NCBI GenBank assembly: GCA_017882185.1 | Contig: JADGQA010000005.1 | Location: 1-39,391 of the forward strand | Reading direction: 5' to 3' | DNA from: Bacteroidota bacterium | Lineage (GTDB): Bacteria > Bacteroidota > Ignavibacteria > UBA10030 | DNA: 39,391 nucleotides | Translations under genes and position numbers: made by a program | The notes under the pieces: generated by a model | What the model was told of the DNA's origin: nothing | Seen by the model: only the letters and a program-made list of their open reading frames with translations | The model's database searches: none | Shown: in pieces, positions 2,017 to 39,391 of the stretch | How positions within the stretch are numbered: the stretch's first letter is position 1 | How the letters are laid out: each line of letters opens with the position of its first letter

Positions 2017-3123
2017 CTAAATACTTTGTACTGGATTTGTTGATATCTGAGCCAATGTAATCGATACGTTCTGTTTCAATTGTTGTACGGCATCCAGCAA
2101 TCTCTGTCGCAATGGCTGGAGAATACCGTGTTCGGTTTCCCAATGCCCGGCGTCCACAAGAGCAATTCGCTCCCGAGCAGAATGAAACGTGTGATAACGC
2201 ACATCGGCGGTGACAAAAACATCGGCTTTGGCACGGATCGCCATCTCGAGAAGGTCAGAACCGCTCCCGCCACACACTGCGATCGTTTTGACCTTCTGTA
2301 GTGGGCTCCCCGTGTAGCGAATTGAACGAGCATCTAGGCTTTGCTTGCATCTCCGCAAGAACGATTGCAGCGTTATCGCACGATCGAGCAGGCCAATTGC
2401 CCCCATTCCAAAGTTCGCGCTCGGAGTGCTTACCGGATAGAGATCGTAAGCTACTTCTTCGTAGGGATGGACTCTCTTGACAGCCTCAACGATTGAACGA
2501 ACGCTCACCGTAGGGGCGACCATTTCCAGGCGCACTTCCCTCACTCGCTCAAATGAACCCCGCTCACCAACATGGGGATTTGATTCGGCGGTTCCTTTGA
2601 ATGTGCCTGTGCCTTCTACTCTAAAGGAACATGAGCCGTAGTTACCGATTGTTCCTGCCCCGGCTTCGGACATTTCTTTTGCGACCTGTTCAACGTGAGT
2701 CGCTGGAACGAATACGACGATTTTTGAAAGCTTCCCTTCCAGGGGAGACAGAAATCTTATCTTCTCAAGTCCGAGTGTCTCCGCCAAAACAAAGCTTACA
2801 CCGTTCCGTGTGAAATCCAGGTTCGTGTGTGCTGAATAAACGGCGATCTTATTTTGAGCAAGCGCCAAGATATTTCTGCCGGTTTGATCTGAATTTGTTA
2901 TCGAGGAGGCTCGGTGAAAGAGTGGTGGGTGGTGGGTTAGAATAAGATTGACCCTTTTCCTGATCGCTTCGCTGACTACGCCGTCAGTAATCTCAAGAGC
3001 GATCATGATTCTCGATACCCGTTGATCGCGTCGACCCAACTGAAGGCCGACATTGTCTTGGTCCCAAGCCGTCCATACGGGTGCCAACTCCTCAATGATG
3101 TGTTCGACGTCCGCAACGGTCAT
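2017..3123 (-). CDS. Nif3-like dinuclear metal centre protein with CutA-like insert
   Basis: Member of the NIF3/YbgI/YqfO (DUF34) family, often labelled GTP cyclohydrolase 1 type 2, though the real activity is unresolved. From the ATG at 3121-3123 the protein has 368 residues, the length of the long form with a central insert. Metal-site motifs are visible: LTHHPPLFH near the N terminus, SAHTNLDF after it, and DAGHWETE near the C terminus. The central part with HPYEEVAYDLYP is the CutA/PII-like insertion. I chose this ATG because the in-frame extension to 3174 would run through a terminator-like hairpin (3146-3178). It heads the run with the zinc-ribbon protein, RNase H and rnpB. Confidence 0.9.
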   Translation of the reverse strand: MTVADVEHIIEELAPVWTAWDQDNVGLQLGRRDQRVSRIMIALEITDGVVSEAIRKRVNLILTHHPPLFHRASSITNSDQTGRNILALAQNKIAVYSAHTNLDFTRNGVSFVLAETLGLEKIRFLSPLEGKLSKIVVFVPATHVEQVAKEMSEAGAGTIGNYGSCSFRVEGTGTFKGTAESNPHVGERGSFERVREVRLEMVAPTVSVRSIVEAVKRVHPYEEVAYDLYPVSTPSANFGMGAIGLLDRAITLQSFLRRCKQSLDARSIRYTGSPLQKVKTIAVCGGSGSDLLEMAIRAKADVFVTADVRYHTFHSARERIALVDAGHWETEHGILQPLRQRLLDAVQQLKQNVSITLAQISTNPVQSI

Positions 3124-3145
3124 AATATGCCAGGCTGAACATAAA

Positions 3146-3178
3146 AAAAGTGTCCCGCCTGTTGGGCGGGACACTTTT
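3146..3178 (-). terminator. Strong hairpin with flanking A/T runs, just upstream of the Nif3-like gene
   Basis: A perfect 14-bp stem (AAAAGTGTCCCGCC paired with its complement) closes a 5-nt loop. On the minus strand it is followed by a run of seven T residues, so it should end transcripts coming from the receiver-DHp gene at 3332-4006. The stem includes A/T ends on both sides, so it may also stop plus-strand transcription. It ends only about 22 bases before the Nif3-like start codon, leaving little room for a separate promoter downstream of it. Confidence 0.82.
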
Positions 3179-3331
3179 CGGAAACTTTCGGGTGTAAATC
3201 TGGTCAGTTAGCTTTCTTATGCCTTTTTTGATGCACATCTCACATTGACTGAGCACAAACTCTCACAGAGTTAACATAAGGAAATAATCTCATAGTTGCA
3301 ACAGAAGGCGATATTCCCGTGCATTCCGCTA

Positions 3332-32662: not shown

Positions 32663-32690
32663 AGCCCCGGAATTCGTTCGGGGCTTTTTC
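32663..32690 (+). terminator. Intrinsic terminator after rpoD
   Basis: AGCCCCG (32663-32669) pairs with CGGGGCT (32679-32685) across a 9-base loop, followed by a run of T. It lies between the rpoD stop and the start of the lipoprotein gene. Confidence 0.85.
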
Positions 32691-35694: not shown

Positions 35695-36504
35695 ATGAGT
35701 AAAGTAATCGTCATAGCGAATCAGAAGGGGGGAGTGGGGAAAACAACGACCGCTATCAATCTGGCCGCCTCACTTGCCGTTGCAGAAAAGAAAGTACTGT
35801 TGTGCGATAACGACCCGCAGGCGAATGCCACAAGCGGCGTCGGCGTGACGGCGGAGGAAAACCGAACGATCTATCAGGTGATTGTCGGCGATCTCAATAT
35901 CAACGAGGCGATCGTCGAGACGCAGATGCCGTTCCTTTGGATTCTTCCTTCCCATATCAACCTCGTGGGGGCGGAAATCGAGCTTGTTGACATGCAGGAG
36001 CGCGAACATTTGCTTTCCAAAGCGCTTCAACTGGCACGAAATAGATTTGACTACATCATCATCGACTGTCCCCCGTCACTCGGATTGTTGACGCTGAACG
36101 CCCTCACAGCGGCAGATTCGGTTCTCATCCCCGTCCAGTGTGAGTACTTTGCACTCGAGGGGCTCGGTCAGCTCTTCAATACGATTAACATGGTAAAAAA
36201 GACGTTCAACCCGAACCTTGACATCGAGGGGGTTTTGCTCACGATGTTCGATTCGAGGCTGCGTCTTTCCAATCAAATCCTTGATGAAGTGAAGAAATAT
36301 TTCGGTGACAAAGTCTTCAAAACGATCGTCACGCGCAATATCCGACTGAGCGAGGCGCCGAGTTTCGGGAAGCCTATTCTTTTGTATGACGCTGTCTGTT
36401 CGGGAACACGCAACTACATGCAACTCGCAAAAGAAGTGCTGAAGAATCACAAAGTCACGATGACTGAGACGACACTTCCACATCACGTAACCGCTGAAGA
36501 ATGA
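35695..36504 (+). CDS. parA: Chromosome-partitioning ATPase ParA/Soj
   Basis: Deviant Walker ATPase that moves chromosome origins with ParB. The 269-aa protein has the P-loop [18 protein letters not shown] with the signature Lys, [14 protein letters not shown] (switch I), [14 protein letters not shown] (Walker B) and [15 protein letters not shown]. It lacks the N-terminal DNA-binding domain of plasmid ParA, so it is the chromosomal Soj type. It ends in the ATGA overlap with parB. No parS-like palindrome was seen in the window. Confidence 0.97.
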
Positions 36505-37427
36505 CTATGGCGACACAGAACAAGAAATCCGTGTTGGGCCGCGGGTTGGGAGCCCTGATCCCGAGTGGATCTCCGAAAGAAATGAGTGTTCGACGCGATC
36601 ACGGGGCCTCGGAGGCAGGAGAAAAGGGTACGTTGGCCAACATCGACATTGCCAAAGTCCGACCGAATCCGTACCAACCTCGAACCGATTTCGACAAGGA
36701 TGCGCTGGAAGAACTCACACGTTCGATCGTTGAAAAAGGAGTTATTCAACCGATAACCGTACGCCGTGCGGACTCCGGATACGAAATGATCACCGGCGAA
36801 CGTCGCTTGCGGGCTGCACATGCGGCAAGGCTCAAGCAGATTCCCGCGTACATCATCACCGTGGACAGCGACGAAGAGATGCTCGAGATGGCGTTGATCG
36901 AGAATATCCAGCGCGAGCATTTGAATCCGGTCGAAGTTGCGATGGGGTATCAGCGCCTGATGCAGGATTGTCATCTCTCGACGGAGGAAATTGCAGAACG
37001 CGTGGGGAAAGAACGCAGTACGGTCACCAATTTCATCCGACTCCTGAAATTGCCGGTGAAGATCCAGGAGGGATTGCGAAAAGACCTGATTCAAATGGGT
37101 CACGCCCGTGCTCTTATCAACCTCCCGAATGAGAAAACGCAGCTTCGCCTCTATGAGAAGATTGTTGACGGTGGGCTTTCCGTGAGGAAAGTGGAAGATC
37201 TCGTGAAGGCGTTTGCGAAGCGGGCGGTGAAGCATGCGCATAAGACACAAACGGAAACGAATTCGAGCACGAGCAGCGTTGAGGAGAAGCTGAGACAGTA
37301 CCTGGGGACAAAAGTTGCCGTTCATGCCAAGGAAAACGGCCGCGGAGAAATCGTTATCGAATACTATTCACTGGAAGACCTTGACCGGCTTATCGAACTC
37401 TTTGCAGCGGCGGAAAAGAATTTCTAA
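36501..37427 (+). CDS. parB: Chromosome-partitioning protein ParB/Spo0J
   Basis: CTP-dependent DNA clamp that loads at parS sites. The 308-aa protein starts with [14 protein letters not shown], the ParA-stimulating peptide. The N-terminal CTPase domain has [13 protein letters not shown] and [14 protein letters not shown], then [14 protein letters not shown]. The HTH is [26 protein letters not shown]. The C-terminal dimerization part holds the closing [14 protein letters not shown] and an ending helix. All segments are intact. The start overlaps parA; an ATG two codons later is also possible. Confidence 0.97.
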
Positions 37428-37492
37428 AGGCAGTTGCATGGATCCCTCTATTGCCTACAGTCACCGAAAAAAGTGTGAATTGAGACGGACAT

Positions 37493-37524
37493 CGAATGAT
37501 CGAGACTTCCGATAGAATCATTCG
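37493..37524. repeat. Inverted repeat in the parB-ridA gap
   Basis: CGAATGAT (37493-37500) and ATCATTCG (37517-37524) form an 8-bp perfect inverted repeat with a 16-base loop. There is no T run after it, so it is not a standard terminator. It does not resemble parS. Confidence 0.4.
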
Positions 37525-37575
37525 GGAGTGATGCTGTATTTATGGGTTGGAACCTAATTCGAGGAAATCAAACAT

Positions 37576-37965
37576 ATGCCAACAAAGAAAATCCTTACTG
37601 AAAGCGCCCCCGCACCGATCGGACCCTATAGCCAGGCAATCCTTGTGGATGGAAAATTCCTTTACACAGCGGGGCAGATTGCGTTAGATCCAAAGACGGG
37701 ATCTCTCGTGTCCGGGGATATCAAGGCGCAAACACGCCAGGTGATCAAGAATGTCGAGCAGGTTCTTCTTGCAGGAGGGGCCTCTCTGAAATCGGTATTC
37801 AAGACAACGGTCTTCTTGAAAGATATGAACGAATTCGGAGCGATGAATGAAGTCTATTCTGAATTTTTCTCGGCGACAGCTCCGGCCAGGAGTACTGTTG
37901 AAGTCGCAAGACTTCCGAAGGATGCAAAGGTCGAGATTGAAGCAGTCGCTCTTGTCGAAAAGTAA
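37576..37965 (+). CDS. ridA: RidA family enamine/imine deaminase
   Basis: A 129-aa YjgF/YER057c/UK114 protein that hydrolyses reactive 2-aminoacrylate-type intermediates. Family segments are [25 protein letters not shown] near the N terminus, ADAL-like packing with ALDPKTG, and the C-terminal signature [24 protein letters not shown] with the substrate-binding Arg. Trimeric, cytoplasmic by family. The sequence is complete and the start is unambiguous. A terminator-like hairpin lies 50 bases after the stop, inside the next gene. Confidence 0.96.
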
Positions 37966-37984
37966 CGGCGCTCTCGGGCTCTTT

Positions 37985-38659
37985 ATGCGGGATGTGTTCT
38001 TTAAAGTTCTAACCAGGAGGGTTACACTGAGTGTAACTCTCCTTTTTTGTTTCTCTCTTGGAATGGGCCAGATCAATATTGGGCGGTCAATCTTTAGAGA
38101 TACCCGTGCCGAAGAGAAGAGTCCTTCCTCGATGTTACGGCTGCAGCATCAGCCGGGAGCGATGACGAACAGCAATCCCTTCCTTTTTGCCCTGCCCGAC
38201 ACACAAGACGTCGCTAAGGATAGTCTTCGAATTGACGCCGGATCAACAAGAGTTGATACGCAATCGGCGAAGAAATCTCCCAGTTTGGCAATGCTCATGT
38301 CTGCGATAATTCCGGGGGGCGGACAAATATACGTGCACCGGTACATCACCATACCGATCATCTGGGGATTGGGCTACTATTTTGTCAAGGCATGGAGCGA
38401 CCAGAACAATCGGTACATATACTATCGTGATCTTTTCACTGCATCAGTGAAAGTCGATAGTCTGCATAAGGGTAACGATCAGTACCAGAAGAATCGCGAT
38501 TTTTACCGCGACGACAGAGACAAGTTCGCCTTCTATATAGCCATCACCTATATTCTGAATATCGTCGACGCGTATGTGAGCGCAAGTCTTTATAGTTTCG
38601 ATGTGAGCGACAACCTCGGCGGCTCTGCTGCGATTCGCCTCCGTTTTCCAATCCAGTAA
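37985..38659 (+). CDS. DUF5683-type exported/membrane protein
   Basis: A 224-aa protein. From ATG 37985 it begins with a signal-peptide-like stretch (basic start, hydrophobic VTLLFCFSLGMGQ). A polar segment follows, then the DUF5683 core around residues 95-125: SLAMLMSAIIPGGGQIYVHRYITIPIIWGLGYYFV. A charged middle (YQKNRDFYRDDRDKFAFYIA) and a hydrophobic ending with NIVDAYVSASLYSFDV complete it. The family is common in Bacteroidota and has no known function. The codons of the signal peptide coincide with a textbook terminator hairpin (38016-38048). A start at ATG 38063 would avoid this but would lose the signal peptide. Confidence 0.85.
   Translation: MRDVFFKVLTRRVTLSVTLLFCFSLGMGQINIGRSIFRDTRAEEKSPSSMLRLQHQPGAMTNSNPFLFALPDTQDVAKDSLRIDAGSTRVDTQSAKKSPSLAMLMSAIIPGGGQIYVHRYITIPIIWGLGYYFVKAWSDQNNRYIYYRDLFTASVKVDSLHKGNDQYQKNRDFYRDDRDKFAFYIAITYILNIVDAYVSASLYSFDVSDNLGGSAAIRLRFPIQ
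38016..38048 (+). terminator. Intrinsic terminator overlapping the start of the DUF5683-type gene
   Basis: GGAGGGTTACAC (38016-38027) pairs with GTGTAACTCTCC (38031-38042) over a 3-base loop, with one G-T pair, and is followed directly by six T residues. It should end the ridA transcript 50-80 bases after ridA. It lies within the predicted coding region of the following gene. Confidence 0.82.
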
Positions 38660-38709
38660 GAGCTATCCAAGAGATGCAGGAAGAGGGAGGTGGGTGGGTC
38701 GAATCATTC

Positions 38710-39391
38710 TTAGGAATGCCTCTTGTGCCTTGCATCAGGAAAGATCTCAACCAATGCTTCATCAATCTTCGAGAACCTGAAACGATATCCGCTGTCGACC
38801 AACTTCCGCGACGCAACTTTTTGTCCACCCAACACCAGCGCCTCCGCCATTTCTCCAAGAACGACCTTCAACACGAACGAAGGAACCGGCGCCCAGGAAG
38901 GTCTGTGCATAGCCTTGCCGAGTGCTGAACAGAATTGTTTCATCGTTACACTCTCTGGCGCAACGAGATTAACAGGACCAACAACCGACGGGTGTTCAAG
39001 GGCATGGATCATTGCGTCGATTTCGTCATCAATGTGAATCCAGGGGAACCATTGTTTTCCCGACCCCAGCGGCCCACCTGCAAACAATCTGAATGGAACC
39101 AGCATCCTTTGCAGCGCTCCGCCATCTTTCGCGAGCACGATCCCTGTCCGAGGAAGTACGACTCTGACGCCCAACCTCTCAGCTTTCATTGCCTCCTCTT
39201 CCCAGCGAACGCACACATCGGCCAGGAAGTCGTTTCCCGGCGGATGAGTCTCTGTTACTTCCTCGTTCTCCACGTTCCCATAGTATCCCACCGCCGAAGC
39301 ATTCAAAAGCACCGAGGGCTTCTTTGATGTCCTCCCGATCGCCTCGACAATCGTTCGTGTTGTTTCGATACGACTGGCAAGAATCGCGGTT
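38710..39391 (-). CDS. TIGR01777/SDR39U1-type epimerase, C-terminal part
   Basis: Partial atypical SDR; the gene runs off the right edge and the frame is open to the last base. On the minus strand the visible 227 residues include SRIETTRTIVEAI, LLNASAVGYYGNVENEEVTE (the family's SAVGYYG with the active-site Tyr region), VRVVLPRTGIVLAKDGGALQRM, GPLGSGKQWFPWIHIDDE and VGPVNLVAPESVTMKQFCSALG. The C-terminal DUF1731 segment has LGEMAEALVLGGQKVASRKL followed by GYRF. These proteins (YfcH and relatives) bind NADP; their substrate is not known. It faces the DUF5683-type gene tail to tail. Confidence 0.92.
   Translation of the reverse strand, partial: TAILASRIETTRTIVEAIGRTSKKPSVLLNASAVGYYGNVENEEVTETHPPGNDFLADVCVRWEEEAMKAERLGVRVVLPRTGIVLAKDGGALQRMLVPFRLFAGGPLGSGKQWFPWIHIDDEIDAMIHALEHPSVVGPVNLVAPESVTMKQFCSALGKAMHRPSWAPVPSFVLKVVLGEMAEALVLGGQKVASRKLVDSGYRFRFSKIDEALVEIFPDARHKRHS

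Follow-up and report, generated by a model that had tools for sequence, protein, structure and literature searches.

The opening codons of a DUF5683 gene in the window, the 39,391-nt stretch of DNA analyzed here, hold a 13-bp hairpin with a U tract directly behind it, placed shortly after the stop codon of the preceding ridA gene. We think it probable, though well short of certain, that this is an intrinsic terminator ending the ridA transcript, whose bases double as signal-peptide codons of the DUF5683 gene and which is leaky, with read-through. The sequence, position and frame of the hairpin and the conserved DUF5683 start are matters of observation; the action of the element is treated conditionally throughout.

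The hairpin and its place in the DUF5683 reading frame

The locus comprises parA (35695-36504), parB (36501-37427), ridA (37576-37965, + strand; Rid family, PF01042 with a Pfam E-value of 3e-43 and TIGR00004 with an NCBIfam E-value of 1.1e-49) and a gene of 224 codons (37985-38659, + strand), the predicted product of which consists of a signal peptide and a domain matching PF18935 (DUF5683) at 101.7 bits, above the Pfam cut-off of 26.7. A gene for a TIGR01777-type oxidoreductase lies downstream in convergent orientation. DUF5683 is matched at E ≤ 0.001 in 27 of 31 other genomes of the same family, and the order parB-ridA-DUF5683 (36501-38659) is conserved in the family loci examined. Between parB and ridA, inspection by eye also revealed an inverted repeat lacking a U tract (CGAATGAT ... 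ATCATTCG, about 37490-37525), possibly an operator or a processing site.

The ridA stop and the ATG at 37985 are 19 nt apart, and the hairpin (38015-38043, + strand) begins 30 nt inside the frame opened by this ATG. Its arms, AGGAGGGTTACAC and GTGTAACTCTCCT, pair around a TGA loop with a folding energy of -18.5 kcal/mol, and the U tract TTTTTGTTT (38044-38052, + strand) follows immediately, the arrangement expected of an intrinsic terminator. The original prediction, which had set a hairpin with its U tract at 38016-38048, was right about the element itself, with the left edge of the stem one base further to the left. It was also right that the hairpin bases are read as R-R-V-T-L-S-V-T-L-L-F in the hydrophobic N terminus: this is their translation in frame from ATG 37985, within an ORF spanning 37847-38659, with the U tract falling in the codons L-F-C-F. 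RNA folding of 38005-38060 yields -19.1 kcal/mol, while 200 dinucleotide shuffles average -9.9 (z -3.4) and two of them fold as well. In the interval 36000-39391, terminator-like matches are no more frequent than expected by chance (four against 3.4 expected); the stems of the other three have 5-6 pairs, against 13 in the ridA-DUF5683 hairpin. The fact that only six of these 13 pairs are G-C, with one G-U, counts against the terminator reading.

Several other identities for the element were considered and set aside. The 17-base core of the hairpin has no second copy in the 3.64-Mb genome with up to two mismatches, which speaks against a repeat family or a binding site of this sequence present in many copies, and the lack of any Rfam match at E up to 1 within 37400-38700 disfavors a riboswitch, a T-box or another Rfam leader. 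A terminator serving the convergent oxidoreductase gene was likewise rejected: there is no minus-strand match to the terminator rule at the hairpin, and the sole such match in 37400-38800 is a weak one (-7.9, 38494-38511). On the + strand of the same interval, loosening the rule to -6 uncovered no other U-tailed hairpins. For the Bacteroidota-type promoter consensus, the full pattern has no match near the hairpin, and the half pattern occurs in the window at the chance level. Separately, we observe that the palindrome sits in codon register and that a minus-strand frame (37684-38076) also reads RRVTLSVTLL, as a by-product of the palindrome.

The terminator is assigned to coding sequence because a conserved start precedes it. 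From ATG 37985, the putative translation runs in frame through 38015-38052, and the codons at 37985-38068 (+ strand; MRDVFFKVLTRRVTLSVTLLFCFSLGMG), judged by this translation and by the layout in relatives, resemble a signal peptide ahead of QINIG. Many relatives in the family have the same N-terminal layout, ending in AQ or GQ, and the GQINIGRSIF that follows the hydrophobic stretch parallels their AQYRVSASLL. Comparison of N termini with relatives, proposed as a check alongside the original prediction, found a signal-peptide-like start closely following ridA at 72 of 76 distinct ridA-DUF5683 junctions, as called by rule (27 of 28 within the same family); the median distance from the ridA stop is 10.5 nt, and 69 of the 72 starts lie between -35 and +75 of it. 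The signal-peptide calls were made with a hydrophobicity rule devised for this analysis and by visual inspection, and the case for the start is made from position and layout because the alignment program aligned signal peptides poorly. Among the four junctions without a rule-called start (L014, L042, L057 and L196), an in-frame signal-peptide-like start is visible by eye in L042 and L196, and possibly in L014, which has a long N-terminal part. In L057 (G072), a signal-peptide-like start just after ridA stands in another frame than the DUF5683 domain, which may reflect a frameshift, an error in the sequence or a start that the rule overlooked.

These junctions contradict one option raised in the original prediction, namely that the true start is the ATG at 38063-38065 (+ strand), with the hairpin as plain intergenic sequence and a protein devoid of a signal peptide; we regard this as extremely improbable. 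The ATG in question is two residues ahead of QINIG, in the expected cleavage region, such that MG-QINIG occupies the position of the AQ/GQ region of the relatives, and we judge it to be internal. The lack in L057 of a signal-peptide-like start in frame with its DUF5683 domain would fit a later start, as would the choice of 38162 by the simple codon-score caller with which genes were called, a choice of little weight for short 5' ends. In agreement with its relatives, then, the DUF5683 gene is predicted to start before the hairpin, at ATG 37985.

Terminator-like hairpins of the genome and the likelihood of a chance origin

To place the element among its counterparts, we draw on a census of hairpins at -12 kcal/mol or better with a U tail in 739,989 nt, made up of the window and 80 other pieces of the genome, none of these longer than 20 kb. 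It returned 60 such hairpins: 40 no more than 200 nt downstream of a same-strand stop, five in a same-strand called gene, seven in an opposite-strand gene and eight elsewhere. The 40 post-stop hairpins start at a median of 42 nt from the stop (range 17-194). The ridA-DUF5683 hairpin, counted among them since the gene caller put the DUF5683 start after it, starts 49 nt from the ridA stop and is of middle strength, with 20 of the 40 at least as strong. Terminators of this sort appear to be in use in the genome, and the ridA-DUF5683 hairpin appears typical among them because its spacing and strength match those of the 40. Together with the conserved start before the hairpin, this makes the doubling of the ridA terminator as coding sequence the best supported of the options offered in the original prediction.

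Two other terminator-like hairpins of the window were seen near gene starts. That at 32663-32685 precedes the apparent start of a lipoprotein gene, an ordinary arrangement. The other, a strong one (-25.5) at 3145-3179 on the minus strand, overlaps the opening codons of the longest Nif3-like ORF (2017-3174, minus strand); as the family match begins at residue 18, the true start of this gene is probably after the hairpin.

The main competitor of the terminator reading is chance: U-rich signal-peptide codons might simply happen to allow a palindrome, which translation would render harmless and which has not been selected. We consider this unlikely, but it has to be taken seriously. When the first 38 codons were recoded synonymously, an equally strong terminator arose in 24 of 20,000 cases, and one of -10 or better in 433 of 20,000; a looser measure, the best 50-nt fold over 150 recodings, gave p 0.033. 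That about 0.1% of recodings equal the terminator counts against our preferred explanation, and the lack of conservation of the hairpin in relatives also fits chance. As a fifth of the genome holds 77 signal-peptide-like genes, these counts suggest a few hundred in the whole genome, and one chance terminator among them would not be surprising and is not unlikely. On the other side stand the strength and spacing of the hairpin, typical of the terminators of this genome, and its rarity among comparable genes: of the 76 other signal-peptide-like genes in the sampled part of the genome, a single gene carries a hairpin (10 bp or more, -12 or better) within the 110 nt from its start, and this hairpin (-12.6) has no U tail. 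Selected or not, a hairpin with this U tract should act on RNA polymerase.

Hairpins at the junction in relatives

Of 154 relative loci, counting that of the window, 76 distinct junctions remained after leaving out 48 without a ridA match in the stretch, 29 duplicates and one with ridA elsewhere. A protein-only query of genome contigs did not find the relatives. The alignment-based scan covered 80 loci, the best 80 of 122, which are titled mostly as Ignavibacteria, Ignavibacteriae, Ignavibacteriales or Bacteroidetes and are nearly all from metagenome-assembled genomes.

The terminator is not conserved at this locus in relatives: at -12, four of the 76 junctions pass the rule, namely the window's, L021, L023 and, weakly, L042. 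This non-conservation across the 76 junctions counts against our preferred explanation. L021 and L023 have near-identical hairpins, which pass with a second-best U tail; the hairpins of L007 and L026 differ in sequence and are not followed by a U tract. In all four of these loci, which belong to the same family, the strong hairpins start 28-42 nt after the start codon. In L042 (G085), which belongs to another family, ridA stop and DUF5683 start share bases (TAATG), and the weak terminator-like hairpin (-12.4, about 648-710 of the reverse complement), followed by ATCTTTTTC, lies in signal-peptide codons.

The two hairpins lacking a U tract cannot be explained by termination, and thus favor an alternative by which the hairpin acts as an RNA structure, either as a barrier protecting the 3' end of the ridA mRNA or as a translation brake in the signal peptide. 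Given that the U tract directly abuts the stem in the window, we hold this alternative to be very unlikely there.

As for recurrence, hairpins of at least 10 bp and -12 or better number six in the 76 junctions of 130 nt each (those of the window, L007, L021, L023, L026 and L032, the last before the start codon), against nine in 110,747 nt of the same loci, taken from the start of each locus to the DUF5683 end minus 130 nt per junction. Six further such hairpins lie downstream of DUF5683, over an uncounted length. In the comparison with signal-peptide-like genes, the scan took in each junction from the ridA stop up to +130 and each control gene over its first 110 nt. At -18 or better, a cut picked after the data were seen, hairpins occur at four of 25 family junctions against one of 183 such genes (Fisher 0.0008), or at three of 24 (Fisher 0.005) with L021 and L023 counted once; at -12 the figures are four of 25 and five of 183 (p 0.014). 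The 25 are 26 family junctions minus the window's own, whereas later counts have 28.

At p ≤ 0.02, synonymous recoding singles out seven of 72 junction signal-peptide regions (L007, L021, L023, L030, L041, L059 and L184), the 72 being the 76 without L014, L042, L057 and L196, against two of 285 same-locus regions and four of 170 other signal-peptide regions; the latter fall from 183 to 170 through the exclusion of unreadable stretches and of three genomes represented by few pieces. With the limit at p ≤ 0.05, the counts are 10 of 72 junctions and nine of 170 regions from the other signal-peptide genes. For the window's own region p is 0.033, and the median z over the junctions, 0.14, indicates no excess of structure overall. 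The excess of junction hairpins is clear against same-locus controls and borderline against other signal-peptide genes. From these counts one might propose that strong hairpins of unrelated sequence keep arising in the first codons at the ridA-DUF5683 junctions of the family, 28-42 nt after the start and sometimes with terminator tails, and that they serve as a recurring means of tying the transcription, or the stability, of a secreted protein's mRNA to early translation of its signal peptide; we find this proposal decidedly unlikely.

Predicted action and parallels in known systems

If the element works as we prefer to read it, as a leaky terminator of ridA, most ridA transcripts would end near 38050, and the fraction that reads through would yield the full DUF5683 mRNA. 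Terminated transcripts would carry the DUF5683 start codon and no stop, forming a stop-less mini-ORF on which ribosomes would need rescue; the genome encodes a tmRNA (177.5 bits, above the Rfam cut-off). To open the hairpin, ribosomes initiating at ATG 37985 would have to trail the polymerase closely. Translation would thus be expected to relieve the terminator only weakly, because termination was largely retained in the W48 reporter of E. coli, the geometry of which is almost the same. By the same analogy, we infer that termination after ridA is efficient but incomplete. Against strong termination between ridA and DUF5683 stands their operon-like spacing of 19 nt.

In meaning, this looks like a natural case of terminator bases that are needed also as protein code, an arrangement tested before by an engineered reporter. 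Were it to work, a strong stop signal would be kept between genes 19 nt apart, at the cost of stop-less mini-transcripts. Signal peptides, with their U-rich hydrophobic codons, would be a site where overlaps of terminator and code can arise, which is a warning to users of gene callers and terminator finders built on the assumption that terminators and genes never overlap. Among the literature matches listed, none reports a terminator overlapping the signal-peptide start of a DUF5683 gene, and the name DUF5683 occurs in the full text of one paper, on nematode receptors.

In pyrBI-type attenuation, a terminator lies within the ORF of a leader peptide. By extension, termination in the window might be relieved on demand, for instance by efficient translation from ATG 37985 coupled to that of ridA, and DUF5683 would then respond to the state of the ribosome or of the secretion pathway. 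This resembles another option of the original prediction, control by termination at the 5' end of the gene itself, which stands insofar as it is mechanically possible: a ribosome translating an ORF that spans the terminator could block the hairpin, as in the pyrBI leader (PMC4824070), and translation of the long leader peptides of pil1 in Streptococcus gallolyticus into a terminator hairpin raises downstream transcription (PMC3894217). The strong hairpins at the same junction in L007, L021, L023 and L026 would fit as well. It does not stand well against the retention of the hairpin in the best fold, the only fold considered, of its 140-nt context, the missing Rfam family, the borderline recurrence and poor conservation of the junction hairpins, and the reporter of nearly the same geometry, in which translation hardly changed termination (PMC4824070); we judge regulated attenuation to be decidedly unlikely. 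Unlike the pyrBI arrangement, there is no separate leader peptide, the ORF in the window being the target gene itself. The same distinguishes it from pil1, the leader ORF of which has GCAGA repeats and changes length by phase variation (PMC3894217); no such repeats were noted in 37966-38062.

The closest parallel to the leaky ridA terminator is the W48 reporter itself (Li et al., 2015, PMC4824070), which shares with the window a hairpin with a U tract and places it 30 bp beyond the AUG that opens a second ORF, at a distance of 48 bp from the upstream stop, the latter value as read from the plasmid name by analogy with W28; the corresponding distances in the window are 30 and 49 nt. In W48, translation of the second ORF cut termination efficiency by only about 10%, and the upstream gene reached about half the expression of the reference plasmid, which the authors attributed to stop-less mRNA (PMC4824070). 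According to the same source, with the stop more than 27 nt from the terminator, efficiency is maximal and a ribosome at the stop no longer represses termination (PMC4824070). W48 is an engineered E. coli construct in which the second ORF ends 16 bp after the terminator (PMC4824070), whereas the ORF in the window is that of a native gene, 224 codons long, from a bacterium that is apparently uncultured. RNA 3' ends within ORFs have been detected in large numbers in E. coli (PMC7815308); by comparison, the site in the window is known from sequence. Terminators and RNA ends inside ORFs are, as a general kind, already in print (PMC4824070; PMC7815308), and the ridA-DUF5683 overlap is real and curious, yet it fits known kinds of element.
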